From NCBI GenBank assembly GCA_023701385.1, contig JAMPXC010000031.1, positions 1 through 36,951 of the forward strand: 36,951 nucleotides of DNA. Direction: 5' to 3'. The notes under the pieces were generated by a model that was not told where the DNA came from, made no database searches, and worked only from the letters and a program-made list of their open reading frames with translations. The position numbers were made by a program, and so were the translations under genes. The stretch is from Pseudobdellovibrio sp. (GTDB lineage Bacteria; Bdellovibrionota; Bdellovibrionia; Bdellovibrionales; Bdellovibrionaceae). Below, in pieces: positions 8,262 through 24,136 of the stretch (positions are counted from its first letter, which is position 1; every line of letters begins with the position of its first letter).

Positions 8262-10178
8262 TTATTTTGACGGAGTTTCTACTGTAATAAATGTGTGATA
8301 CTGGTCATTATAACGTTGGTTCATAATCTTCCAAATGTCACGGTTTTTACCACCGAACTCACCAGCATTAGCCATACCACGTAAAGCTGGAGCTTTAGGG
8401 CGGAATCCATTCACATCATTTTTATATCCTTTGCCATTTGAAGTTTTTGCTGGACTTCCTTTTTCGCTACCACCACCACCGAACATACTTGAGATAGCTC
8501 CTTTAGCATTTTGGAAGAAACCTGACAGACCACCTTTTTCACCGCCTTCGCCGCCTGCGCCATTACCAGCACCGTCACCGCCACCCATATTCAGATTTGC
8601 GCCCGGAGAACCTGCTGCTGCTGCCGGAGCAAATGGTGAACCGGCATCAGCTGTTGCTGTGCCTGAACCTGTTGGACGAGTTTCATCATATAAACCGCTT
8701 AAACCGCTATCATCAATTTTAACTTTACCGGCATTACTGCCACCGCCAGATGAAGAAAAACCAGGACCAGCAAATCCTGAAATCGGAGCTGCTACGCCCG
8801 AACCTTGCGGATTAATCTGTCTTACTGTCGACGCACACTTAGGATCCGTTGAACCAGGAGGACAACCTACCGAACTGTAAGAACAGCCTGGTTGATTCAA
8901 GTTTTGCATACACGTCAGTGGACTCACAACACTATCACAACTTTCTTTGCCGTTATTGCCCATAGTTAGCTGACATTTACAAATATCAGCTTTTTGCACG
9001 CTCTGCGCGAGTCTTCCGAGCATATCATCGAACTGACCTTCAGCAACCTGAGCATCGCCTTTACAAAATTTATCAATATTTTCCGAATACTTTTTGTGTT
9101 GTTGAGCACGCACCGCAAATTCATTTTTATGCTCTTCGCTCCAAGTTCCACCAGGATTTTTGGCTTCGTACTTAGCCTTACAAAGGCCTTCCAACTTATT
9201 AATATCTTCTTGAGCATACGCTTTAACGTCTGCACATCCTTGCTTACAAGCTTCTAATTCTTTTTTACAAGTTTTTTGAAATAAACTTAAAGCTTCAATA
9301 ACACCAGTGCCAGCCGCACTCATTTTTGCGCAAGATTCTAGCGCGCCCGAACCTGCATTTTGGGCGACCATAGCATCTAAACCGATAGATAGAACACGTT
9401 GGGCTTCAGAAATATTTTTATTAGTTTCTGGAGCATCTTTGCTACATTTATCAAAAGCGTCCTGACCTTTTTTAGAACAAGCTGCTTCTGCACTTTCAAT
9501 TTCTGTAAAACAGTCAGCAAAATCTTCTTCTTTTACTGTTGCTGTTGGAGATACCGGCGCTGCTTTTACACCAGGACACACTGTACCTGGTTTTGTTGCG
9601 TCCATTTCTTTATCATTTTCACAAACACAGCGAGAACCTTCTTGAACTGCACCCGCAACTGTACAACCTGTCTGATTTTCAACTTTTAAAGTATCAGGAT
9701 TTACAGGACAAGATACATACGCACTTTCTTTAGCACCTTTCGTTTTGCAAAGACAATCCCCATCACTACCTGATTTAGGGTCCCAATTAATATCCATCTC
9801 TGTAGATAATTGACCTTTCATATGCGTACAAAGCTGTTTTTTTAGTGACCCGCTGGCATTTACGCAGAAAAAGTATCCAAGAGTATTATCAAGAAGATCA
9901 CCGTGACCCGATCCGATGTATTGTGGATTTCCTGGATTAACAACAACCCCTGAGGATCCACAGGCTTTTACACCATTTCGCGCAGTAGCAGGTTTAACCG
10001 CAACTTTTTTACAACTGATTTCCTTGCCAAGCGCATCTCTGAAAACTTTAGTATAAGATTCACCAAGAAACTTAAGCTCTGAAAGCTTAACTTCTCCCGA
10101 TTCACAGCTTTGAGCTTGTGCGAGTTGATAACTTAGCAAAGATAATATGACGATGAAGTAGGATATAATGTTTTTCAT
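8262..10178 (-). CDS. Secreted Cys/Gly-rich protein, paralogue A of a four-gene array
   Basis: A 638-residue secreted protein of unknown function. I start it at 10178 (MKNIISYFIVILSLLSYQLA), which gives a clean signal peptide; an upstream in-frame start would overlap paralogue B. The first ~200 residues hold many Cys pairs. Residues ~210-400 are helical with spaced Cys (for example CKKELEACKQGC), then CKCQLTMG and short Cys loops. From ~450 the protein is Gly/Ser/Ala-rich, with SGFAGPG, GTATADAGSPF, a GFFQNAKGAISSMFGG helix, and a final KNRDIWKIMNQRYNDQYHTF motif. Paralogues B-D carry the same modules in the same order, but A is the most diverged. It begins 1 nt after the stop of B, so the two are co-transcribed. 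Confidence 0.85.
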   Translation of the reverse strand: MKNIISYFIVILSLLSYQLAQAQSCESGEVKLSELKFLGESYTKVFRDALGKEISCKKVAVKPATARNGVKACGSSGVVVNPGNPQYIGSGHGDLLDNTLGYFFCVNASGSLKKQLCTHMKGQLSTEMDINWDPKSGSDGDCLCKTKGAKESAYVSCPVNPDTLKVENQTGCTVAGAVQEGSRCVCENDKEMDATKPGTVCPGVKAAPVSPTATVKEEDFADCFTEIESAEAACSKKGQDAFDKCSKDAPETNKNISEAQRVLSIGLDAMVAQNAGSGALESCAKMSAAGTGVIEALSLFQKTCKKELEACKQGCADVKAYAQEDINKLEGLCKAKYEAKNPGGTWSEEHKNEFAVRAQQHKKYSENIDKFCKGDAQVAEGQFDDMLGRLAQSVQKADICKCQLTMGNNGKESCDSVVSPLTCMQNLNQPGCSYSSVGCPPGSTDPKCASTVRQINPQGSGVAAPISGFAGPGFSSSGGGSNAGKVKIDDSGLSGLYDETRPTGSGTATADAGSPFAPAAAAGSPGANLNMGGGDGAGNGAGGEGGEKGGLSGFFQNAKGAISSMFGGGGSEKGSPAKTSNGKGYKNDVNGFRPKAPALRGMANAGEFGGKNRDIWKIMNQRYNDQYHTFITVETPSK

Positions 10179-10179
10179 A

Positions 10180-12432
10180 TTAATTCTTCTCTCCAAAAAT
10201 AAAAGAGTCTTTTTGATCTTGAACTTTATATTGTCGATTCATAACTTTCCAAATATCTTCAAACTTACCGGCAATTTCAGTATCACTGCCTGAAGCAAGC
10301 CCGCGAATCATTTTTCCCGGACGCCATTTTTTTGCGTCAATCGGATTACCGTTCGCATCTAAACCACCGCTACCAAAACCATAGCCTGAAGTTTCGTTAT
10401 TATTCTTTTTGCTGCCGCCAAATAAATTGCCGAGCGCCCCTTTGGCTGAATTAAACATACCGCGAATTCTTGATTCAGCTGAAGATTCTGCATCTCCGCC
10501 CACTGAATTTTCGCCACTGCCAAAGTTACCATTAACTCCTGGGCTACCGCCACGGCCGTTAGCCGCACCGAATGGTGATGATGCATCTGCAGTTGTTGTT
10601 CCCGAAGCATTCATAGCTGTTACTTCATTTGATTTTAATTCACTTAAATCACCTGGGTTAATGCCTACACCTGTTTTGTCACTGCCGCCACTGACTTCAC
10701 CCACACCACCAAATCCTGAACTTCCGCCAGGACCTGCAAAACCACTCAAATTAGAATTCGAATTTATCTGTTTTACATTTGAAGCTACGCTTTTACATTC
10801 ATCACTATTCGGATTTCTAAAACAAATACATCTTGGTGAATTATCTGAAGGATTTAAACAATTCACCTGCGCATTAGCACAACCCGGAAGTGTTGGATCA
10901 GCTGAGCAATCTTTAGGACCTACTTGGTTAGTACAATTAGAACCACCCGCAGTTAATTGACACTCACACTGACTGGCACTTTTAAAAGTGTTATCCATAT
11001 CAGTCATGTAGTTACTCATTTTTTCACGATTGGTCACAGCTGTACCAGTTTCACATTTCGTGTTGTTGGTAGCCACGTTATTTTGCATTTGCTGGACTTG
11101 TTGATCAAACGCAGCTTTATTATCTTTATCCCATTCCGCATTCCAAGCATCTTCAGTAAATGCTAGAGGATACGGATTGTCTAAGCGGCATGTAAAACCG
11201 TTGCCTGTATAATAAACCCATTGTTTTTTACGACACTCTTGATAAACGCGCTCTTTGTTGGCGCTAATATATGAAGTCGCATCACCACAGCTTGTTTTAC
11301 AAGAGCTAATTTCAGTGTCACATTTACCGCGAAGCTCATCTAAAGCATAATAACCTGTAGATCCTGCTACAGCAGCTTGCGCACAATTTTGCGAAGCTCC
11401 CATTGCAGCACCTGTAGCCCCTTGTAATAAAGTTTGGAGAGCGCCAAGGGTATCATCTTCTTTACGATCTGGGTTACATTGATCAACAGCTGTTGAAGCC
11501 GCTGAATTACATGAATTTACTTTTTCTTGCATCTCACGTAAACACTCTGCTGCTGCCGTCGATGGTTGCGCTGGCGTAGCATCTGCTACACACACGCCCG
11601 CACCACCTAAACCAGCTGTATCACGATATCCATCAGCGCAAACGCAACTACGATTTTCTGAATCATAAACTTTATGATCTCCTCCACGACAAGCATTTGG
11701 ACAAATTTGATCAGTACCACGCTGAACAGAGTGGTTTCCTTCGTCATCACAACTGCAAAGAATCGGTGACCTTGAATCAGGTGTTGTACCTACAATACAT
11801 GGAGCTATGGCACAAGCACGACCATCCCAAACCCCATGTTTTTCTTCACAAGTTTCTTTCGTCGCACAACGGTGCGGAGCTTCTTCGGTACAAGCCGTGC
11901 TTGGCGTAGCCACCACAGTCTTACGTGGTGTTTCTTCTTTTTTTGTTTTGGTTGTTTTAGTTCTTTCTTTTTTAGCCGCGGCACGTTTGGCCGCTGCATC
12001 TGCTTCAAGACAGCCTTGAACCTGATTTCTGCGCTCTGATCTTGTTTTAGCATTTCTCGATTGCGCAAGACATTTATCACAAAGCGGGTCACCGACATAA
12101 CAAAGACGCGCATCACTTTGTGAATTGTCAGAACTACTTATATTTCGTTCAACCGCGAAGACACCATGATCACTTAAACATTTTTGATACTTATCACCGT
12201 AGTCACCAGCTTGTTTGTGACAATCGGCTTTAATTTTATCTTCGCCCGTTTTAGGAGCTGCCGCCGTTTTTTTTGGTTGTTGTTTTTTAAATGCTTGCGG
12301 CTTTACTTGATCAAGACAATTCACTCCGGCCTTACAAGGAATTTGCACTGTAGTTTTTTTTACTGGAGGATTAGCGAATGCAGCAATAGCAATAAAATTC
12401 ATCAAACTGATAATTAAAATTAGTTTGCTCAT
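10180..12432 (-). CDS. Secreted Cys/Gly-rich protein, paralogue B
   Basis: 750 residues, unknown function. The start at 12432 (MSKLILIISLMNFIAIAAFA) has a GAGGG ribosome site and a typical signal peptide. A Lys/Thr-rich stretch with spaced Cys precedes an EGF/TIL-like Cys cluster (CADGYRDTAG). A helical core begins AECLREMQEKVNSCNSAAST and includes AGSTGYYALDELRGKCDTEI. A second Cys cluster (CECQLTAGGSNC, CICFRNPNSDEC) leads into SNLSGFAGPG and a Gly/Ser-rich tail with GMFNSAKGALGNLFGG (about residue 658). It ends with FEDIWKVMNRQYKVQDQKD and FIFGEKN. Paralogue C shares the ending almost exactly, plus a 56-bp identical DNA tract. Its promoter block at 12475-12510 is shared with C. Confidence 0.88.
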   Translation of the reverse strand: MSKLILIISLMNFIAIAAFANPPVKKTTVQIPCKAGVNCLDQVKPQAFKKQQPKKTAAAPKTGEDKIKADCHKQAGDYGDKYQKCLSDHGVFAVERNISSSDNSQSDARLCYVGDPLCDKCLAQSRNAKTRSERRNQVQGCLEADAAAKRAAAKKERTKTTKTKKEETPRKTVVATPSTACTEEAPHRCATKETCEEKHGVWDGRACAIAPCIVGTTPDSRSPILCSCDDEGNHSVQRGTDQICPNACRGGDHKVYDSENRSCVCADGYRDTAGLGGAGVCVADATPAQPSTAAAECLREMQEKVNSCNSAASTAVDQCNPDRKEDDTLGALQTLLQGATGAAMGASQNCAQAAVAGSTGYYALDELRGKCDTEISSCKTSCGDATSYISANKERVYQECRKKQWVYYTGNGFTCRLDNPYPLAFTEDAWNAEWDKDNKAAFDQQVQQMQNNVATNNTKCETGTAVTNREKMSNYMTDMDNTFKSASQCECQLTAGGSNCTNQVGPKDCSADPTLPGCANAQVNCLNPSDNSPRCICFRNPNSDECKSVASNVKQINSNSNLSGFAGPGGSSGFGGVGEVSGGSDKTGVGINPGDLSELKSNEVTAMNASGTTTADASSPFGAANGRGGSPGVNGNFGSGENSVGGDAESSAESRIRGMFNSAKGALGNLFGGSKKNNNETSGYGFGSGGLDANGNPIDAKKWRPGKMIRGLASGSDTEIAGKFEDIWKVMNRQYKVQDQKDSFIFGEKN

Positions 12433-12474
12433 GCATTCCCTCATTGGTTCTTTTCGGCTAAAGATGATACAGAC

Positions 12475-12510
12475 TTGAGTCAATGTCTCAAATTAATACA
12501 AGACTTTTTT
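12475..12510 (-). promoter_or_regulatory. Conserved promoter/operator block upstream of paralogue B
   Basis: A 17-bp near-perfect palindrome TTGAGTCAATGTCTCAA (12475-12491) is followed by AATTAATACAAGACTTTTTT. The whole 36-bp block recurs with one difference at 14657-14692 upstream of paralogue C. Read on the minus strand, TTGAGA sits 16 bp before TATCAT, a possible -35/-10 pair, with the palindrome over the -35. A regulator binding this dyad would control both genes. Confidence 0.55.
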
Positions 12511-12537
12511 GAGGCTCAATATAGGGGTTATTAACAG

Positions 12538-14610
12538 TTAATTCTTCTCTCCGAAGATGAAATTATCCTTTTGATCCTGAACTTTATATTGGCGGTTCAT
12601 GACTTTCCAAATATCTTCAAACTTGCCCGCAAGCTCAGTGTCAGCGCCTGAAGCAAGCCCGCGTACCATTTTTCCTGGGCGCCATTTTGTAGGATCCATC
12701 GGATTACCATTGGCATCTAAACCACCACGATTAGAACCAAAGCCTGAAGAAGTTTCGTTATTTTTTTTGCCACCCAATAAATTTCCAATCGCACCTTTAG
12801 CGGTATTAAACATTCCACCAATTTTTGATCTTAACGAAGTATCGTCTTCACCTTGAGCGCTATTTGATTCACCCGATCCGAAATTTCCATTAACGCCTGG
12901 GCTACCAGCACCACTGTTAGCCGCCGAAAATGGAGACGCCTCTGCTATTGCGCTTCCCGACGCATTCATAGCAGTGATTTCGCTCGATTTAAGTTCACTT
13001 AAATCACCTACATTAACACCCACATCTGTTTTTCCACCGCTACTTGAATCGACCGTTCCGAAGCCGTCCGTCGAATTTCCCGGTCCAGTAAAACCACTGA
13101 GATTGGAATTTGGTTTTACATTGTTAACCGCACGGATACTTTTACATTCATTGCTATTTGGATTTCGGAAACAAACACACTTAGGAGAATTATCAGAAGT
13201 ACTTAAACAATTTACTTGCACATCACAGCCAGGAAGCGTCGGATCGGCCGCGCAATCTTTGGGACCAATCTGGTTCGTACAATTTGCACCACCAGAATTC
13301 AATTGGCACTCACACCGACTGGCACTTTTAAATGTACTATCCATATCAGTCATGTAATTGCTCATTTTTTCACGGTTAGTAACAGCCGTTCCAGATTCAC
13401 ATCTAGCATTGTCGGTAGCCACGTTATTTTGCATCTGTAAAATTTGCTGTTCGAAACTTGTTCTGTTTTCGGCATCCCACATCGGATTAAATCGCTCCGC
13501 CGGTAACGGCGGTCCGGCATTAGCTTGCTCGCGAAATGCTTTTTCACGACAAGCATTATAGATACGATTTTTATTTGCATTAATATATGAAGTCGCATCA
13601 CTGCAACTCGTTTTACAGCTGCCAATTTCGGTGTCACACTTACCGCGAAGTTCATCTAGTGCGTAATAACCAGTTGACCCCGCCACAGCGGCTTGCGCAC
13701 AGTTTTCAGAAGCTCCTATTACAGCCGTAGCCCCTTTTAATAAATTTTGAAGAGCACCGATCGTATCGTTTTTGTTGTCCGGGTTACATTGATCAACAGC
13801 TGTTGAAGCCGCTGAATTACATGAATTTACTTTTTCCTGTAATTCGCGCAAACACTCTTGGCCTGCGGTTGGCGACGGAGGTGTTGCTTCAGAAGCGACA
13901 CATGTTCCATTGTCGTCCCTATAACCTCCGGCACAAATACATCCACGTGTAATCAGATTATAAACCTGATGATCTTCAGCACGGCACATACTTGGACACA
14001 GCTGGTGTGTACCGCGCTCAATCGCATAGTTTACATCGTTATCACATTTACAGTAGTTACCATCACTTAAAGGACGATCTAAATCTGGAGTTGTTCCGCG
14101 GGGACAAGGCGCTACAGCGCAGGCTTGACCGTTCCAAATGCCATTGTTAGCTGTACAGGTCTCCTGTGTTGTACACCTAGCTGGAAAATTTTTAGAGCAA
14201 GTTCTTGCTGGAGCATTAACAACGATTTCTGGCAGAGTGCCGCCATCATAAATTGTATCATCGTTACCGGTTTTCATACATCGCGAAAACGCATCTGAAC
14301 TGATATCTTCAATTGTCTTTTTACATTTAATAAAAGTAGGATTTTGCGGATGGTACATTTGAGCATAGCTACCACCACTTTGCTTGATCACACCATTGTC
14401 ATTGGCGCACTCAGCGTAAATAGCATTACAACGACCCAGGGCATCTTTGGCTGCTTGAGTTTGACGTGATTCGCCCCCATATTTTGCAGAATACTCCTTC
14501 ATACAGTTTTGTATAAGCGGAGCACATTGTTTATTTGAAGCCCACTCAGCCATAGCAGACCCACTCAACAAGATTGATGAAATGAAGAATAGAAATAGAA
14601 TATATCTCAT
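12538..14610 (-). CDS. Secreted Cys/Gly-rich protein, paralogue C
   Basis: 690 residues, unknown function. I start it at 14610 (MRYILFLFFISSILLSGSAM), with a GAGGG ribosome site and a signal peptide ending near AMA; an upstream in-frame start adds seven residues without better support. Module order matches B and D: N-terminal Cys pairs, a CICAGGYRDDNGTC cluster, the GQECLRELQEKVNSCNSAAS helical core, AGSTGYYALDELRGKCDTEI, CECQLNSGGANC, CVCFRNPNSNEC, SNLSGFTGPG, a Gly/Ser-rich region, IGGMFNTAKGAIGNLLGG and the final KFEDIWKVMNRQYKVQDQKD. It has its own promoter block at 14657-14692. Intergenic gaps of about 105 bp on each side make it a separate transcription unit. Confidence 0.88.
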   Translation of the reverse strand: MRYILFLFFISSILLSGSAMAEWASNKQCAPLIQNCMKEYSAKYGGESRQTQAAKDALGRCNAIYAECANDNGVIKQSGGSYAQMYHPQNPTFIKCKKTIEDISSDAFSRCMKTGNDDTIYDGGTLPEIVVNAPARTCSKNFPARCTTQETCTANNGIWNGQACAVAPCPRGTTPDLDRPLSDGNYCKCDNDVNYAIERGTHQLCPSMCRAEDHQVYNLITRGCICAGGYRDDNGTCVASEATPPSPTAGQECLRELQEKVNSCNSAASTAVDQCNPDNKNDTIGALQNLLKGATAVIGASENCAQAAVAGSTGYYALDELRGKCDTEIGSCKTSCSDATSYINANKNRIYNACREKAFREQANAGPPLPAERFNPMWDAENRTSFEQQILQMQNNVATDNARCESGTAVTNREKMSNYMTDMDSTFKSASRCECQLNSGGANCTNQIGPKDCAADPTLPGCDVQVNCLSTSDNSPKCVCFRNPNSNECKSIRAVNNVKPNSNLSGFTGPGNSTDGFGTVDSSSGGKTDVGVNVGDLSELKSSEITAMNASGSAIAEASPFSAANSGAGSPGVNGNFGSGESNSAQGEDDTSLRSKIGGMFNTAKGAIGNLLGGKKNNETSSGFGSNRGGLDANGNPMDPTKWRPGKMVRGLASGADTELAGKFEDIWKVMNRQYKVQDQKDNFIFGEKN

Positions 14611-14656
14611 GAACTCAATTCCCTCAGCCAACCTTTCGGACGAAAGTCATACGGAA

Positions 14657-14692
14657 TTGAGTCAATGTCTCAAATTAATACAGGACTTTTTT
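14657..14692 (-). promoter_or_regulatory. Conserved promoter/operator block upstream of paralogue C
   Basis: Second copy of the 36-bp block, with the same TTGAGTCAATGTCTCAA palindrome at 14657-14673. On the minus strand TTGAGA is 16 bp before TATGAC. It differs from the 12475 copy by one base, while the flanking DNA on the gene side has diverged. That points to selection on the block or to recent duplication. Confidence 0.55.
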
Positions 14693-14716
14693 AAAGTGCA
14701 ATACAGTCGTTTACAA

Positions 14717-16810
14717 TTACTTCTTCTCTCCAAATATAAATAAGTCTTTTTGATCTTGAACTTTATAACGCTTGTTCATAACTCGCCAAATATCTTCAAA
14801 CTTACCGGCAAGTTCAATACCTTCACCCGAAGCAAGTCCACGAACCATGCGTGGACGCCATTTTTTTAAATCTATTGGATTACCGTTAGCATCTAGGCCG
14901 TTACCATAAGCACCCGATTTTGTGGCCTCACTGCTGTTCCCTTTTTTATCGCCAAATAAATTTCCAATCGCACCTTTGGCCGCATTAAACATTCCACCTA
15001 TTTTTGCATTGATTGAAGAGTCAGCTTCACCCTGAGCTGCATTTTCACCTGATCCGAAATTACCATTAACACCAGGGCTACCACCAGCACCAGCGACTCC
15101 AAATGGAGATCCCCCATCAGCTGTTGTAGTTCCTGAAGAATTCATAGCCGAGACTTCGTTTGAAGCAAGATTTTTGAAATCATCAGCGCTCAGATCAATA
15201 CCCGTTTTTCCACCGGCACCTGTTTCACCAATTCCATTTGTCGGAGTTACGGCACCAGGTCCCGCAAAACCATTTAGATTTGAATTTGTATTTACATTTG
15301 GTGTGCCTGCAACATTTTTACATTCACTGCTATTAGGGTCTCGGAAACAAACACACTTCGCCGAAGCATCAGAAGGGTTTAAACAATTTACCTGTGCATT
15401 CGCACATCCCGCCAGCGTTGGATCGGCCGCACAATCTTTTGGACCAACTAGGTTTACACAGTTTGCACCACCAGAACTTAACTGACATTGACACTGGCTA
15501 GCCGCTTTAAAGGTGCTGTCCATATCAGTCATATAGTTACTTACTTTTTCACGGTTGGTAACAGCAGTTCCTGACTCACACTTAGTGTTGTTACTGGCAA
15601 CACTAGCTTGCATTTCTTGAATTTTTTGTTCGAAGGGAGCTTTATTCACTTTATCCCATTCTTCATTCCAAACATCTTCAGTAAAAGCCATAGGAAACGG
15701 ATTGTCGAAACGGCAGCTTAAATAATCATACTGCTTTTTACGGCAGGCTTGGTAAATACGGTCTTTGTTGGCATTGATATACGAAGTCGCGTCACCGCAA
15801 CTTGTTTTACAGGTACCGATTTCAGTATCACATTTGCCACGCAGTTCATCTAAGGCGTAATAACCTGTTGAACCCGCCACTGCGGCTTGAGCACAGTTAT
15901 CTGAAGCGCCCATAACTCCCGTCGCGCCTTTTAATAAATTTTGCAGTGATGTGATCGTATCATTGTTTTCACGATCGGGATTACATTGATTAACAGCCGT
16001 ACTCGCTGCTGAATCACAAGAATTTACTTTTTCTTGAATTTCACGCAAACAATCTTGCGCTGTCTCTGATGGCTGTACTGGTGCCGCAGTTGCTACGCAC
16101 ACCATAACATTATCAGTACTGCCTGATGGATCACGATACCCGTCAGCACAAGCACAACTTTTAGTTGGCCCATCATAAACTTTATGATCTTCAAAGCGGC
16201 ACATACTTGGACATTGTTGTTGTGAACCACGCTCGATAGAAATACTGATATCACTTAGACATCGGCAATTTTGCGGAGAAACATTATCAGCCACCGTACC
16301 TTGCGGACATGCAACCGCCGCACAAACTTGACCATCCCAAGACCCATTATTATAGGCACAAGTAAGTTCTGTCGTACATTTTTCAGGATATTGTTTTGAA
16401 CATGTTCCGAGAATAGCTTTCGGTTGTAGGATCGTGTACTCAGCTTTTTCAGTTTTTTTAGTACTACCCTGCGTTCGTCCACGCATACACGCCGTAAAGG
16501 CATCTGAATTCGGATCAGAAATTGTTTTACGACATTCAATAAAGTCAGCGTTGGCCGGATTATACATTTGAGCGATACGACCACTTTTTTGTGTGATACC
16601 GCCGTTGGCAGCACTACATTCATTAAAATGTGCTAAACATTGTGCCTGGGCAACTTGGCGATCGGGATTAATTCTTAAACCAAATTTTCTTTTCACGTCA
16701 GCCATACAAGCTGTCATCTCAGGATTACAATTTCGATTAACAATTGCGGCTGTTGCATTCGCATCAAATGAAAAGAAGATGGCTACTAGCAAAAATAAAC
16801 TAAATCTCAT
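14717..16810 (-). CDS. Secreted Cys/Gly-rich protein, paralogue D (first of the array)
   Basis: 697 residues, unknown function, and the most upstream member of the array. The start MRFSLFLLVAIFFSFDANAT gives a signal peptide and has a GAGGGG ribosome site. N-terminal Cys-containing repeats (NRNCNPEMTACMADVKRKFG, then a Cys-spaced segment) are followed by CACADGYRDPSG, AQDCLREIQEKVNSCDSAAS, AGSTGYYALDELRGKCDTEI, CQCQLSSGGANC, CVCFRDPNSSEC, SNLNGFAGPG, a Gly-rich tail with IGGMFNAAKGAIGNLFGD, and the final KFEDIWRVMNKRYKVQDQKD. The palindromic block that precedes B and C is not present upstream, so regulation may differ. The upstream neighbour (PLP enzyme) is 65 bp away and probably a different unit. 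Confidence 0.88.
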   Translation of the reverse strand: MRFSLFLLVAIFFSFDANATAAIVNRNCNPEMTACMADVKRKFGLRINPDRQVAQAQCLAHFNECSAANGGITQKSGRIAQMYNPANADFIECRKTISDPNSDAFTACMRGRTQGSTKKTEKAEYTILQPKAILGTCSKQYPEKCTTELTCAYNNGSWDGQVCAAVACPQGTVADNVSPQNCRCLSDISISIERGSQQQCPSMCRFEDHKVYDGPTKSCACADGYRDPSGSTDNVMVCVATAAPVQPSETAQDCLREIQEKVNSCDSAASTAVNQCNPDRENNDTITSLQNLLKGATGVMGASDNCAQAAVAGSTGYYALDELRGKCDTEIGTCKTSCGDATSYINANKDRIYQACRKKQYDYLSCRFDNPFPMAFTEDVWNEEWDKVNKAPFEQKIQEMQASVASNNTKCESGTAVTNREKVSNYMTDMDSTFKAASQCQCQLSSGGANCVNLVGPKDCAADPTLAGCANAQVNCLNPSDASAKCVCFRDPNSSECKNVAGTPNVNTNSNLNGFAGPGAVTPTNGIGETGAGGKTGIDLSADDFKNLASNEVSAMNSSGTTTADGGSPFGVAGAGGSPGVNGNFGSGENAAQGEADSSINAKIGGMFNAAKGAIGNLFGDKKGNSSEATKSGAYGNGLDANGNPIDLKKWRPRMVRGLASGEGIELAGKFEDIWRVMNKRYKVQDQKDLFIFGEKK

Positions 16811-16875: not shown

Positions 16876-18015
16876 TTATTTTAAAACAAAAAGTGCTTTT
16901 TCTAAATCAGTTTCTGTGTTGAATGCGTTCGGAGTGAAACGTAATCCCGGGCCACGAACTGCATGAAAAATCTTTTCTTTGTTTAATTTGTCTGAAAGTT
17001 CTTTGTTCGTCATCGCACCACGAGGCTTAACATTAATAAACGGTGTTGAATTGATTTTTTCACTCTGATAAGGAGATACAATTTCGTATCCTAAATTCAC
17101 TAACCCCTGACGAAAAATTTTTGCTAATCGCAAGGCTTCAGTCTCGATATTTTTTATTCCAGTTTTCTGGAGCACATCTATAGATGCCCCCATCGCTGTA
17201 ATTTCTAAAACTTGTTTTGAACCCGGTTCAAATTTCAAAGCATCGCGTTTTGGTACACAGGCAAAATCTGAAGGGTCATCACAGGTTCCGTACGTGTACA
17301 TACCGATCACATGCGGTTTAAATTTTGGAATATGATTTTTACGTAACGCTAAATAACCAACACCTACTGGTGATGAAAGCCATTTATGACTTCCACCCAT
17401 CACAGCGTCTGCTCCCCAGCTCCAGATTTCACACGGATGAAGACCAAACCCCTGAATGATATCGACAGAAACAAAAATTCCTTTTTGCTTCGCTGTTTCG
17501 ATCACGTGTTTAATATCTTCCATTTGGCTTCCGGCCTGAAACTGCACCCAGCTAAAAGCAATCACTTTTGTTTTTGGTGTGATCGCTTTTAAATATTTCT
17601 CCATCGGAGTTGATAAGTTTTTTTCTGATTCAACGATAACAAGGTTTGCACCCACTTGATCGCACGCGGCTTTCCAGGGGTAAAGATGACTTCCGTACTC
17701 TTGATCCCACATTAAAACTTCATCGCCCGCTTGCAAACCGCACGAAAAAGCCACTTGGCTAATCGCTCCTGCGGTTGAAGAAAAGAATGCGACTTCACCC
17801 GCTTCACAGCCGATCATACCGGCTAAACTTGTGCGTGTGTTCGTTACATCAGCGGCGTAATCTTTATCGGTGTTGTAGCCTTCTTCCCAGAAGCGGCGTG
17901 ACCAGTAATCAATTTTTTCACGAGCGGCTCGTGTGATGGGTTGTAAACCCGCATTGTTTAAATGCACCAACTCGTTTCTGTTAAACTGGGCCTTGTAAGC
18001 TTCTAAGCTAGACAT
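16876..18015 (-). CDS. Class V PLP-dependent enzyme, probable C-S lyase (EgtE-like)
   Basis: A 379-residue fold-type I PLP enzyme. I start it at 18015 (MSSLEAYKAQFNRNELVHLN) because an AAGGA site lies about 8 nt upstream; a longer in-frame reading would extend into the OvoA fusion gene. PLP features: FFSSTAGAISQ near residue 77, SVDIIQGFG with Asp185, and GGSHKWLSSPVGVGYL with the Schiff-base Lys211. The C terminus (GPGLRFTPNAFNTETDL) is typical of the family. It overlaps the end of the sulfoxide synthase gene by 13 bp, so the two act together. In ergothioneine and ovothiol pathways a PLP lyase cleaves the sulfoxide adduct to the thiol, and that is the likely job here. A cysteine desulfurase or kynureninase-like role cannot be excluded. 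Confidence 0.8.
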   Translation of the reverse strand: MSSLEAYKAQFNRNELVHLNNAGLQPITRAAREKIDYWSRRFWEEGYNTDKDYAADVTNTRTSLAGMIGCEAGEVAFFSSTAGAISQVAFSCGLQAGDEVLMWDQEYGSHLYPWKAACDQVGANLVIVESEKNLSTPMEKYLKAITPKTKVIAFSWVQFQAGSQMEDIKHVIETAKQKGIFVSVDIIQGFGLHPCEIWSWGADAVMGGSHKWLSSPVGVGYLALRKNHIPKFKPHVIGMYTYGTCDDPSDFACVPKRDALKFEPGSKQVLEITAMGASIDVLQKTGIKNIETEALRLAKIFRQGLVNLGYEIVSPYQSEKINSTPFINVKPRGAMTNKELSDKLNKEKIFHAVRGPGLRFTPNAFNTETDLEKALFVLK

Positions 18016-21000
18016 GTATTTCCTTCTTTGATCAGTTGGATAAGCTCTTGCACCTGGGCAAAGTGTAACCGATACCCTAAAAGACAAATGCGAATCGAAT
18101 AACAGCCACCGATTTCACAGCCGCTTAAGAAAATTTTATTCTGCGAATTAATCCAGCCTAAAAGTTTTTTTGTTTTTTCTGAATTACCTAAATTAAAAGT
18201 TTGAATTGTTAAATGCGGTTCAGAAATCACGTTCACTGATTCGATTTTTTTAAGTTCTGCGTTTAAGTATTCAGATAATTTAATTTTTTCTTCTAAATTT
18301 AATTTAAATGGGCCGACCCCGAAAGCTTTTAGCGGAAGCCATACACGTAAGCCACGCGGGTCACGTGATAATTCCGGAGAAATATCGGCAAAGTCGATCA
18401 TGCTAAACTGTTCATCCTGAAGTCCTGGTGACGGCGGCATATAAGAACTGCTTCCCGCGTACTGTGTTTGCAAGTCGCCTTTATTTTTAATCAACAAACA
18501 GCCTACACCATACGGAATTTGCAAGGCTTTGTGTGGGTCTAGAGCCACTGATTGTGAACGCTCAATACCTGATAAAACTTTTTGGCCTTTTTCAGTTAAC
18601 ATAAATAAAGCGCCGTAGGCCCCATCAACGTGAAACCATATTTTATTTTTTTCACAGATATCGGCTATCGTACTTAATGGATCAACAGCGCCTGTGTTTG
18701 TTGTACCCGCAGTTCCAATCGCAGCAACTGTAATAAATCCGTTTTTCTTATCTTCGGTGATTGCTTTTTCGAGTTCAGAAGCAATCATTGAATAGTTTTG
18801 ATCGACCGGAATTAAACGTAAACACTCTTTCGGAAATCCTAAAAATGCTAAGGCTTTACCGATGCAGTGATGCACTTGTGTTGAAGCGTAAAAACGCGCT
18901 TTGGATAAATCGTTTTGATTGGCAAATAATTTATTTCTAGCCGCAGCTAAAGCCATCATGTTGGCTTGGCTTCCGCCACCCGTCAAAATACCTGTAGCTG
19001 TTGTATCAGGATATTTCATCATCGTGGTAAACCAACGAATCACTTCCATCTCTAAAGTGACTAAACCTGGAGCTAAACTAAAATGACCGGTGAATTGATT
19101 CATCGTCATCGCTAAAGCATGCGCTGGCGCACTCAGTGGATTTGCAGCACCTGCCACATAAGCCATATAACCTGGATGCCCTGGTTGCTGCCCCAGTGGC
19201 GCGATATCTTGTGCTAAGAACTGCACGAGTTTTTCAAAGCTTTCTGGGTTTTCAGGAAAGTTTTTCGTTGTTTGATACGGTCTACGATAATCTTTTTTAA
19301 TATCGTTTGTATAAGGATCAAGCGCTGATCCCATCGGAGAAACGTCTTTACGGTTTTGCTCAAAGTTAGTTACAAACTTTTCAACCGCTTGATAAGTTTT
19401 TTGAATTTCTTCGGCTGATAGCTCCATGGGTTGTTGAACCTGACGCCACCAGTTTTCATTTTGCATTTGATCTAAAACATTTTCACGACGTGTGTGAACA
19501 TATTCGCCGTTTTGTTTAAGTCTTACAGCAGCGTTATCAGTTGAACCATCTAAGGTTGTCGAAATACGAAAGCCTGCATGTTGAAAAAAATGCGGACGAA
19601 AGTGAAAGCGCGCATTCACACTGGCTTCATGGCCACAGCTGATAAAACTTCCGCCTAAGATCATTTGATGTTTGCCATCAAAACACGGTGTTGAAAAATC
19701 ATCGTAAAGTTTATTAATTTTAAATCCTTCAAGAGGATTAAATTGATCTTCAGCCCACTGCCAGACGTTTCCGAATAAATCATAAACGCCATCTTGCAAG
19801 GCTCCTGCGTTCACCGGGCGTGGTGAAGCGTGGTGATAGTTAAAATTAAATTTTTCAGACATGGTATCAGAAGATTTTTTATATTCTTGCTTTTGCAAAA
19901 CATCGTCTTCTTTTAAATTTAATTTTAACGAAACAAATTCAGCTTCAGTGATTAAACGGTAGTGCAGTGTTGATTTATCTTGTTCTTGCTTCCAACGGCA
20001 ATAAGCCTGCGCTTCGTGATAGTTCACTTCAGCAGGCCAATCCCATGGCATATCGATAATTTCAAAAACCGTACGTAATTTGTAATCGTGTAAACCTTCT
20101 GGGCCGTAAGCCACCCAAAATGTCGGGCGTTTTGTGTTACGAAATTTACGCCACATTAAACCTTCAGCTTGCCAGTATTTATCTTCAGTATAAGCTCCTG
20201 TGGCCACGAAATCATAATACTCACCGTTACTGATTAAGGCTTGAGTCATTTGAAAATCTTTTGTTTTAGAATTTCTATGACCGTATTCATTATCCCAACC
20301 AAAACTTGGCGCTGTTTCTGGTTTACCGTAAGAAACAAGGCTTCCTTGGTGTTTGCTCCACGCATTGACCGGAAAATCTTTACCTGCAACTGGCTTTGCT
20401 GTCTTTGTGGATTTAGTTCCATAAAGTGGCGCCCAGTATTTTGGAGTTTCAACTAACTCAATCGGAAGTTCGCGCATCAACACGCTGCTTGTTTCGAAGT
20501 GAATTTTTTCATGTTCAAATCCCATGAATAAAGCCCATAGCGGATGTTGTGGCCCAAGTTTAATATTTTTAGTTTTACGTGTTTCAAAATCTAAATCGGG
20601 ATGGGTCTGAATTAAATTTTTTATAAGGTTATAGATTTTTTGGCGATACTCATGAATTGTCGCAACCGATGGCCATTCCATCTCATTTTTCGACATATCA
20701 TCCCAACTCATTTCATCTACGCCTGTTTCAAGAACTTTCTCGAGATATAAATCCACAGGATTGTCCACAACACCGGCTAAACGTAATTTATTTAAAAATA
20801 AAACCGCTGGATGGCCATAGTAAAAAGCCAGTGGATGGCGCAACTGATGGTACGGAGGGCGCACATAAGTTGATTCATGCTTAAGGCTTGAAAATAAAAC
20901 TTCAGTTAAAGTCCACGTGTTATCGAAATAATCCAGAACATCTTGGCGTGTGCAAATTTCTAAATTAATCAAAGGCAATGCCGCTAGATATTTTTTCTCA

Positions 21001-21158
21001 CGGTCAAAACCCACACATTTTTCGGGGTGAACACCCGTCCACCAACGGTGACCAAATTTTTGCTGCACTTCGTTTGGCGAACTGCGGTCAACTTTCGGCG
21101 CTGATAAGTTGGGATTACGAGTTAAAGATACGGTTTGTGGTGTGTTGCTTAATGACAT
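18003..21158 (-). CDS. ovoA: Fusion of OvoA-type histidine-cysteine sulfoxide synthase and PLP group II decarboxylase
   Basis: A 1051-residue fusion. Residues ~35-240 are a DinB-like domain with the OvoA signature LETGVDEMSWDDM (143-155) and a probable iron site of His116 (YYGH), His216 and His220 (FEHEKIH). Residues ~265-535 are an FGE/sulfatase-modifying-type domain (LFGNVWQWAEDQF, LGGSF, FQHAGFRIS). These two domains define the enzyme that joins cysteine to the histidine imidazole as a sulfoxide using iron and O2. Where OvoA normally carries a SAM methyltransferase, residues ~563-1045 are a PLP decarboxylase: GGGSQANMMALAAAR (727-741), stacking His763, HVDGAYG with Asp845, and DPHK with Lys877. 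It may decarboxylate the histidyl adduct or its thiol product. The start lacks a strong ribosome site. Confidence 0.88.
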   Translation of the reverse strand: MSLSNTPQTVSLTRNPNLSAPKVDRSSPNEVQQKFGHRWWTGVHPEKCVGFDREKKYLAALPLINLEICTRQDVLDYFDNTWTLTEVLFSSLKHESTYVRPPYHQLRHPLAFYYGHPAVLFLNKLRLAGVVDNPVDLYLEKVLETGVDEMSWDDMSKNEMEWPSVATIHEYRQKIYNLIKNLIQTHPDLDFETRKTKNIKLGPQHPLWALFMGFEHEKIHFETSSVLMRELPIELVETPKYWAPLYGTKSTKTAKPVAGKDFPVNAWSKHQGSLVSYGKPETAPSFGWDNEYGHRNSKTKDFQMTQALISNGEYYDFVATGAYTEDKYWQAEGLMWRKFRNTKRPTFWVAYGPEGLHDYKLRTVFEIIDMPWDWPAEVNYHEAQAYCRWKQEQDKSTLHYRLITEAEFVSLKLNLKEDDVLQKQEYKKSSDTMSEKFNFNYHHASPRPVNAGALQDGVYDLFGNVWQWAEDQFNPLEGFKINKLYDDFSTPCFDGKHQMILGGSFISCGHEASVNARFHFRPHFFQHAGFRISTTLDGSTDNAAVRLKQNGEYVHTRRENVLDQMQNENWWRQVQQPMELSAEEIQKTYQAVEKFVTNFEQNRKDVSPMGSALDPYTNDIKKDYRRPYQTTKNFPENPESFEKLVQFLAQDIAPLGQQPGHPGYMAYVAGAANPLSAPAHALAMTMNQFTGHFSLAPGLVTLEMEVIRWFTTMMKYPDTTATGILTGGGSQANMMALAAARNKLFANQNDLSKARFYASTQVHHCIGKALAFLGFPKECLRLIPVDQNYSMIASELEKAITEDKKNGFITVAAIGTAGTTNTGAVDPLSTIADICEKNKIWFHVDGAYGALFMLTEKGQKVLSGIERSQSVALDPHKALQIPYGVGCLLIKNKGDLQTQYAGSSSYMPPSPGLQDEQFSMIDFADISPELSRDPRGLRVWLPLKAFGVGPFKLNLEEKIKLSEYLNAELKKIESVNVISEPHLTIQTFNLGNSEKTKKLLGWINSQNKIFLSGCEIGGCYSIRICLLGYRLHFAQVQELIQLIKEGNTCLA

Positions 21159-21351: not shown

Positions 21352-21840
21352 ATGAAAAAAAGTTTTTTTGATTTCACAGTGAAAAGCGCCCAGGCCAAAG
21401 ACTATGACTTAGCACAACATAAAGATAAAGTTGTTTTGGTGGTGAACGTTGCCAGTAAATGTGGTTTTACTCCACAGTACAAAGGGCTAGAAGCATTGTA
21501 TCAAGAACACAAAAATGAAAACTTCACAATTCTTGGTTTTCCATGCAATCAATTCGGTTCACAAGAACCAGGATCAAATGAAGAAATTCAATCTTTCTGC
21601 GAAATGAATTACGGTGTTACATTTCCGGTTTTAGGAAAAGTAGCCGTGAATGGCTCTGATGCTGATCCAATTTACAAACACTTAAAAGAAGAAGCTCCAG
21701 GAATTTTCGGCACTGAGGCTATCAAATGGAACTTCACGAAATTTTTAGTTGGTAAAGACGGTCAAGTGATCGAGCGTTTCGCGCCAAACACTGAGCCACA
21801 AGATATCAACGAAGCCATTAAGAAAGCGTTAGGTAAATAG
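21352..21840 (+). CDS. Glutathione peroxidase family thiol peroxidase
   Basis: A 162-residue peroxidase that would reduce hydrogen peroxide or lipid hydroperoxides, using glutathione or more likely thioredoxin as donor. The active site NVASKCGFTPQY carries the peroxidatic Cys37 (Cys, not Sec). LGFPCNQFGSQEPG contributes Gln71, and KWNFTKFLV contributes the conserved Trp and Asn. Cys65 and Cys83 are further cysteines, one of which may resolve the disulfide. No signal peptide is seen, so it is cytoplasmic. The start has an AGAGAGGA ribosome site. It lies downstream of an OxyR-type motif and 2 bp before a small secreted protein gene. Confidence 0.95.
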   Translation: MKKSFFDFTVKSAQAKDYDLAQHKDKVVLVVNVASKCGFTPQYKGLEALYQEHKNENFTILGFPCNQFGSQEPGSNEEIQSFCEMNYGVTFPVLGKVAVNGSDADPIYKHLKEEAPGIFGTEAIKWNFTKFLVGKDGQVIERFAPNTEPQDINEAIKKALGK

Positions 21841-22882: not shown

Positions 22883-24136
22883 ATGTCTCGTTTATGGGTA
22901 TGGTTCCCACCTCACCTAATTGGAACTATCGAGCAGGATGATGATGGACTGTCTTTCACATATTCAAAGGAGTGGATGAACTACGAAAAAGCTTTTCGGC
23001 TATCGTATTCACTACCAATAACTAACTCTAAATACACAAAGGAAGCCGGTGCATTTTTTGGCAACTTGCTGCCTGAAGGAAACGCAAGGGATGCATTGTG
23101 CCGACGCTTTGGAATCTCGATAGACAACGACTTTGAATTGCTAGCGCGCATTGGAGAGGACTGTGCTGGCGCATTTATCATTACAAAACATTCTAAGCCT
23201 CCAACAGAGGCTGGCGGAGTAGAAGAAATTGAAAGAGAAACTTTAGCAGAATGGCTTAAGAACGATTCTTCAGGATTAATAGATTTGCAAGTGAAGGGTG
23301 ATCTTCGTTTATCTCTTGCTGGCGCACAAAACAAACTACCAGTTATCTATAAAGACGGAAAATTTTTTAAGCCTCTAAGTTCGCAGCCGACGACTCACAT
23401 TCTAAAGCCAGCGCCAAAAAGCTTTAAAAACATTCCGCTTAATGAGTGGATAAACTCCAAAGTCTACGCAGCTTTCGGATTAAAAACTGCAAATTCTGAG
23501 TTAATTAAAATTGGAGCGCGCTACGCACTGCTAGTTGAAAGATATGACCGAGTAAAAATAAATGGCAAATGGATTAGACTTCATCAAGAAGATTTCTGCC
23601 AGGCACTTGCTATAACGTACAAAAAAAAATATGAACAAGAAAATGGTCCTTCGCTCACAAACTGCCAAGAACTACTCGATTTTCGCTCTGATGACACCGC
23701 AGAAGACACAGATTATCTAATCAAATGGCAAATCTTAAATGTTCTAATTGGAAATTGTGATGGACACGGAAAAAATCTGTCTCTTCTCAGAGATCATGAT
23801 GGCAACTGGCGACTAGCTCCTTTTTATGATTTAGTTGCAACAACGCTTTATCCAAGATTAACAAAAAATTTAGCAATGTCTGTGAATGGCCAGTACGACT
23901 CTGGCACGATTCACCCGACCAACTGGAGAAAACAGTTTGAAATATTAAAGGTAAGTCCAACACATTACATGAAGGCGATTGAAAAAATGATTGAGGGAAT
24001 GCCTGACGTTCTGGAAAAGGTCTTGAACGACTATCAGGAAAAATACGGAACCAATCCATTTTTAGCCGATTACAAAGCTCATCAGTTACGAATAGTCAGA
24101 AGAAATGCGCAACTAATCAAACTAGATTCAAAATAA
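22883..24136 (+). CDS. hipA: HipA-like serine/threonine kinase toxin
   Basis: A 417-residue HipA kinase. In E. coli HipA phosphorylates glutamyl-tRNA synthetase and drives persistence. The N-terminal subdomain includes GAFFGNLLPEGNARDALC (56-73). LSLAGAQNKLPV (143-154) holds the P-loop Ser that HipA autophosphorylates. HILKP gives Lys175, the catalytic loop IGNCDGHGKNLSLL has Asp293 and Asn298, and APFYDLV has the metal-binding Asp316. All kinase motifs look intact, so it should be active. It ends 4 bp before a strong hairpin shared with the convergent recA operon. Confidence 0.95.
   Translation: MSRLWVWFPPHLIGTIEQDDDGLSFTYSKEWMNYEKAFRLSYSLPITNSKYTKEAGAFFGNLLPEGNARDALCRRFGISIDNDFELLARIGEDCAGAFIITKHSKPPTEAGGVEEIERETLAEWLKNDSSGLIDLQVKGDLRLSLAGAQNKLPVIYKDGKFFKPLSSQPTTHILKPAPKSFKNIPLNEWINSKVYAAFGLKTANSELIKIGARYALLVERYDRVKINGKWIRLHQEDFCQALAITYKKKYEQENGPSLTNCQELLDFRSDDTAEDTDYLIKWQILNVLIGNCDGHGKNLSLLRDHDGNWRLAPFYDLVATTLYPRLTKNLAMSVNGQYDSGTIHPTNWRKQFEILKVSPTHYMKAIEKMIEGMPDVLEKVLNDYQEKYGTNPFLADYKAHQLRIVRRNAQLIKLDSK

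Follow-up and report, generated by a model that had tools for sequence, protein, structure and literature searches.

The genome of Pseudobdellovibrio sp. encodes a protein in which an OvoA-type sulfoxide synthase is joined to a group II PLP decarboxylase, and this gene is directly followed by a gene for a class V PLP enzyme. On balance, we favor the reading that these two genes constitute a pathway to a decarboxylated 5-thiohistidine, most likely 5-thiohistamine (5-mercaptohistamine), and that members of the Bdellovibrio group carrying the fusion probably make an undescribed sulfur-containing histamine and not the antioxidant ovothiol. In this pathway the N-terminal half of the fusion would form 5-histidylcysteine sulfoxide by an oxidative, iron-dependent coupling of L-cysteine with L-histidine, in the manner of OvoA, the class V gene product would cut the C-S bond to yield 5-thiohistidine, and the C-terminal PLP decarboxylase, which occupies the place of the OvoC domain in ordinary OvoA, would strip the histidine carboxylate to give 5-thiohistamine. 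The relevant features of the window (the whole stretch of DNA analyzed, 36,951 nucleotides of contig JAMPXC010000031.1) are listed in Table 1; the position, strand and length of the fusion gene are those reported in a preliminary description of this DNA.

Table 1. Coordinates of the fusion gene, its domains and key codons, and neighboring genes in the window.
Feature	Position	Strand	Details
Fusion gene, OvoA-type sulfoxide synthase and group II PLP decarboxylase	18003..21158	-	ATG start, 1051 aa
Sulfoxide synthase half	19557..21053	-	residues ~36-534; matches DinB_2 78-223, FGE-sulfatase 276-532, TIGR04344 64-532
H116 codon	20811..20813	-	predicted iron ligand; the same in all 22 fusions; conservation at least 97% when OvoA-methyltransferase proteins are aligned too
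Iron-binding HxxxHxE motif (H216-E217-K218-I219-H220-F221-E222)	20493..20513	-	H216 and H220 predicted ligands
Residue 218 codon	20505-20507	-	between iron-ligand histidines
Y485 codon	19704..19706	-	conservation at least 97% over fusions and OvoA-methyltransferase proteins together
Conserved linker	19464..19556	-	residues ~535-565
Group II PLP decarboxylase half	18006..19463	-	residues ~566-1051; PF00282 match 630-989
K877 codon	18528..18530	-	PLP lysine; aligns with human histidine decarboxylase K305
Y906 codon	18441..18443	-	invariant catalytic-loop Tyr; counterpart of Y334 in the alignment with human histidine decarboxylase
Class V PLP enzyme (EgtE/SufS-like fold)	16876..18015	-	379 aa; proposed C-S beta-lyase
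Four consecutive genes	8262-16810	-	644, 767, 697 and 697 aa; downstream of lyase gene; mutually similar, Cys-rich
Glutathione-peroxidase-family gene	21352-21840	+	PF00255, 141 bits; divergent from fusion gene, 193 bp apart
HipA-family gene	22883-24136	+	PF07804, PF13657

An artifact of assembly or annotation, or a chance arrangement, can be ruled out, because Bdellovibrio sp. qaytius (CP025734), whose genome is closed in a single contig, has a full-length copy (85% identical), and about 20 more copies come from independent assemblies. A search of 60 near relatives recovered six more full-length copies, of which that of B. sp. qaytius is the closest, and a scan of genome contigs identified further copies in MAGs of Bdellovibrionales and Bacteriovoracaceae. 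The ovoA_Nterm model is matched above its cut-off in 35 of 369 Bdellovibrionota genomes, and 22 of these 35 encode a fusion-type long frame of 1019-1089 aa; beyond these intact frames, a contig end truncates one fusion and an inserted reading frame splits another. In the Bacteriovoracaceae MAG P-RSF-NP-05 (L063:8001-12632) the fusion gene is broken by a 438-aa ORF of opposite orientation, which may be an insertion element. Outside Bdellovibrionota, a single-query scan of genome contigs returned OvoA-methyltransferase proteins and some that are short or truncated; none is fused to a decarboxylase.

The N-terminal half is OvoA-like, in agreement with the signatures noted in the preliminary description. 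Profile search with TIGR04344 (ovoA_Nterm) gives 577 bits (cut-off 400), and all 22 fusions match this model. Identification of this half as EgtB (TIGR03440, 125 bits, cut-off 360) or as SenA (NF041186, 122 bits, cut-off 420) was rejected. The signature GVDEMSWDDM is found at residues 146-155, and H116, H216, H220 and E222, which make up the predicted three-His iron site with its HxxxHxE motif, are invariant across the 22 distinct fusions. Residue 218 is lysine in 22/22 fusions and arginine in 57/58 OvoA-methyltransferase proteins. Conserved positions that differ between these two types of protein are few, and 81 positions are nearly invariant between them, including the iron ligands and Y485, which we take to be the counterpart of EgtB Tyr377 and OvoA Tyr417. 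The role of the tyrosine at that position has been described (PMC10903977). Since the fusions and the OvoA-methyltransferase proteins both keep the iron ligands and Y485, the same coupling of histidine and cysteine is expected of the synthase half, as judged from its conserved residues.

In order to place the fusions among their relatives, a maximum-likelihood phylogeny was obtained for 85 synthase domains, including those of all 22 fusions. The fusions form one clade (support 100/100), with a single label change in 100% of bootstraps. The sister of this clade is an OvoA-methyltransferase protein from a Bdellovibrio relative of the same family (G192, locus L107; support 98/96), and both nest in a larger clade consisting mostly of OvoA-methyltransferase proteins. 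The simplest account appears to be that the methyltransferase was exchanged once for the decarboxylase. The linker of the fusion starts with DNAAVRL, which resembles KDSAVRL of the G192 protein; because such a segment is common to both protein types, the swap point would lie just after it.

An uncultured Silvanigrella MAG encodes an OvoA synthase (L059:7666-9579, +) with a C-terminal extension that is truncated by the contig end. In a one-sequence search, its tail shows a weak similarity to the beginning of the profile built from the fusion decarboxylases (15 bits, E 3e-7), and this protein, which lies outside the fusion clade, could represent an older or separate fusion. The product of a gene upstream of it (L059:336-4391, +) is 1352 aa long and contains AMP-binding and PP-binding domains.

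The C-terminal half was recognized in the preliminary description as a complete group II decarboxylase, and profile search bears this out: PF00282 (Pyridoxal_deC) matches with 213 bits (cut-off 27). The PLP lysine K877, D845, the stacking histidine H763 and the loop tyrosine Y906 are invariant in the 22 fusions and align with human histidine decarboxylase, the sequence of which was checked against the PDB match. The active sites of both halves look intact. The AlphaFold2 model of the fusion is of moderate quality (mean pLDDT 70) and weak around both active sites; when it is used as a Foldseek query, OvoA_Th2 (8khq) is the top match, and group II decarboxylases, 4obu among them, appear lower down. 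Purifying selection is equally strong on both halves of the fusion and on the downstream class V gene, with dN/dS values of 0.075 for the synthase, 0.081 for the decarboxylase and 0.079 for the lyase gene.

None of the curated substrate-specific NCBIfam equivalogs (His, Tyr, Glu, Asp and diaminobutyrate decarboxylases) scores above its cut-off for the decarboxylase half. The best score is obtained with diaminobutyrate decarboxylase (153 bits, cut-off 900), and the histidine decarboxylase family model reaches 72 bits (cut-off 305). The nearest stand-alone homologs, at 34-38% identity, are uncharacterized actinobacterial and haloarchaeal proteins. Relative to stand-alone homologs, N673, H692 and the YMPP catalytic loop starting at Y906 are invariant residues peculiar to the fusions, which suggests that the decarboxylase half has a distinct substrate. 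No OvoA is annotated near the plasmid-borne close relatives of this domain in haloarchaea and Streptomyces. In Actinophytocola xanthii, a decarboxylase homolog with 34% identity (L061:13002-14408, +) is encoded downstream of an OvoA-methyltransferase gene, at a distance of about 2.7 kb. This arrangement was set aside as supporting evidence, as a flavoprotein-like gene intervenes and no other locus has the same layout.

The decarboxylase might act first, converting histidine to histamine, which the N-terminal half would then sulfurate to 5-thiohistamine; as histamine has been reported to be a substrate for OvoA (PMC9103826), this order of steps gives the same product. Such an activity is consistent with the presence of S931 at the position of human histidine decarboxylase S354 and with the match of H763, D845, K877 and Y906 to the catalytic residues of that enzyme. 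However, the score with the histidine decarboxylase family model is low, V668 and G691 are found where the human pocket has Y81 and F104, and the near-invariant OvoA positions, which serve an enzyme using L-histidine, are unaltered in the fusions. We regard decarboxylation of histidine ahead of the synthase step as unlikely.

Substrate prediction is uncertain for the group II decarboxylase superfamily, and the decarboxylase half could also use an amino acid unconnected with thiol synthesis, or a by-product, for example cysteine sulfinate arising from an oxygenase side activity of the synthase. Cysteine sulfinic acid can be a further product of OvoA (PMC9103826), and the related solved structures include cysteine sulfinate decarboxylases. 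A role as a pathway step is favored by the fusion of this domain to the synthase, its replacement of the OvoC domain and its joint conservation with the lyase, and a substrate outside the pathway is in our estimate likewise unlikely. Within the pathway, loss of the cysteine carboxylate would prevent a PLP beta-lyase from acting and therefore fits the conserved lyase poorly. In the proposed scheme it is the histidine carboxylate that would be removed, after C-S cleavage.

The class V gene starts with an ATG at 18015, with AGAAGG just upstream, and overlaps the fusion gene by 13 nt; an alternative TTG start, with an ORF reaching 18087, is less likely. The protein matches PF00266 (Aminotran_5, 143 bits), its PLP lysine (Lys211 in SHKW) is invariant, and its structural model (pLDDT 90.6) leads to SufS/CsdA folds in Foldseek. 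Assignment as a SufS-type cysteine desulfurase was rejected, since the C-terminal Arg loop reads RGPGLRFTPNAF, without Cys, and the SufS model gives 114 bits (cut-off 475). EgtE, the C-S lyase of ergothioneine synthesis, has the class V PLP fold in common with this protein, but the latter scores 52 bits with the EgtE model (TIGR04343, cut-off 400) and is not an EgtE by this family test.

Of the fusion loci, 20 extend far enough to show what lies downstream, and in 20 of 20 the class V gene is directly 3' of the fusion; it is the only neighbor common across genera; the other neighbors of the fusion change between genera. The fusion-linked lyases form one clade (100/100), the sole member without a visible fusion beginning at a contig edge. 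Three related genomes from another bacterial family, which lack the fusion (G226, G220 and G227; loci L130, L131 and L132, respectively), encode a stand-alone OvoA N-terminal protein of 445-513 aa. The gene after it is again a class V gene, from the wider family to which the fusion-linked lyases belong, and these loci contain neither a methyltransferase nor a decarboxylase. Such genomes may make free 5-thiohistidine. The class V family is not linked exclusively to OvoA, as it is also present in Bdellovibrionota genomes without an OvoA match, beside unrelated genes. Since the wider family occurs without OvoA, we infer the lyase role: the class V protein would be the kind of C-S lyase that the pathway requires, and its role need not be restricted to the thiol pathway.

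OvoA-OvoB fusions reported from hydrozoans (PMC9103826) likewise join an OvoA synthase to a PLP enzyme, in that case a C-S lyase, whereas here a decarboxylase is the fused partner and a separate gene encodes the proposed lyase. That the fused PLP domain is itself the C-S lyase, leaving another task for a class V protein whose family is found also without OvoA, is very improbable: the domain joined to the synthase belongs to the group II decarboxylases and has Tyr906 in its catalytic loop, the class V gene always adjoins the fusion, and relatives that have OvoA but lack the decarboxylase still have an adjacent class V gene.

Profile search for OvoC (TIGR04345, cut-off 170) reveals no such domain within the fusion protein itself and gives at most 40 bits in the 12 fusion genomes tested, compared with 232 bits in the G192 genome. 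The genome containing the window has other short methyltransferase-like matches to this model (best match 38.7 bits), but weak matches of this kind turn up in every control genome and none in the 12 fusion genomes approaches the cut-off, so that an unlinked methyltransferase acting on 5-thiohistidine, with ovothiol remaining the end product, is scarcely credible. The preliminary description had proposed a decarboxylated, mercaptohistamine-like thio-imidazole rather than ovothiol as the product, and this reading is strengthened by the single domain swap, the lack of OvoC in the 12 genomes and the invariant class V gene. Counting against the two-gene pathway are the lack of a curated decarboxylase match above cut-off, the presence of the class V family outside OvoA genomes, the failed EgtE cut-off and the weakness of the model around the decarboxylase active site.

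In terms of other thiol genes, the genome containing the window, which is 95% complete, has no match to EgtD (ergothioneine methyltransferase) and no GshB (glutathione synthetase) above cut-off. The absence of EgtD and GshB is not universal: three Bacteriovorax-type genomes with the fusion have divergent GshB-like genes, and three fusion genomes have EgtD-like genes, one of them above cut-off. It is conceivable, if somewhat doubtful, that 5-thiohistamine or a derivative serves as a main low-molecular-weight thiol and redox buffer in those Bdellovibrio-type bacteria, the present one among them, that lack EgtD, OvoC and a recognizable glutathione synthetase.

Among the loci compared, the peroxidase gene neighbors the fusion only in the window and in Bdellovibrio sp. 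qaytius, and for this reason we do not count it in the pathway. The four Cys-rich genes have no Pfam or NCBIfam match, and B. sp. qaytius has homologs of them at the corresponding location.

The fusion can be compared with several known systems. The bifunctional OvoA/OvoC ovothiol synthases (OvoA_Th2, 8khq; Erwinia tasmaniensis OvoA) share its N-terminal family, iron motif and catalytic Tyr, but end in a SAM methyltransferase where the fusion has a group II PLP decarboxylase, OvoC being missing from the genome. Group II decarboxylases such as the Ruminococcus gnavus Trp decarboxylase (4obu) and human histidine decarboxylase (4e1o) have the PLP Lys, Asp, stacking His and loop Tyr in common with the C-terminal half, which differs from them in being joined to a sulfoxide synthase, in its own N673, H692 and YMPP loop, and in falling below every substrate-specific cut-off. 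The 5-thiohistidine N-acetyltransferase of Proteiniphilum saccharofermentans (PMC12631010) likewise tailors 5-thiohistidine by a reaction other than methylation, although there a separate CoA enzyme carries out acetylation and here a fused PLP domain would carry out decarboxylation. Before the report of that enzyme in 2025, no enzymes forming 5-thiohistidine derivatives were known besides those of ovothiol synthesis, and the known enzymatic fates of 5-thiohistidine are only two, methylation to ovothiol and N-acetylation (PMC12631010). Neither an OvoA-decarboxylase fusion nor thiohistamine biosynthesis was found in the open-access full text searched, in keeping with the novelty suggested in the preliminary description; an earlier mention in the literature on ovoA evolution is possible.

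The fused decarboxylase appears to have been gained once, and strong selection has maintained it in several families and genera within the Bdellovibrio group. It points to a third branch from 5-thiohistidine, leading to small thiols of a new class. Loss of the carboxylate would alter charge and metal binding, and the resulting compound could become a building block or a signal.
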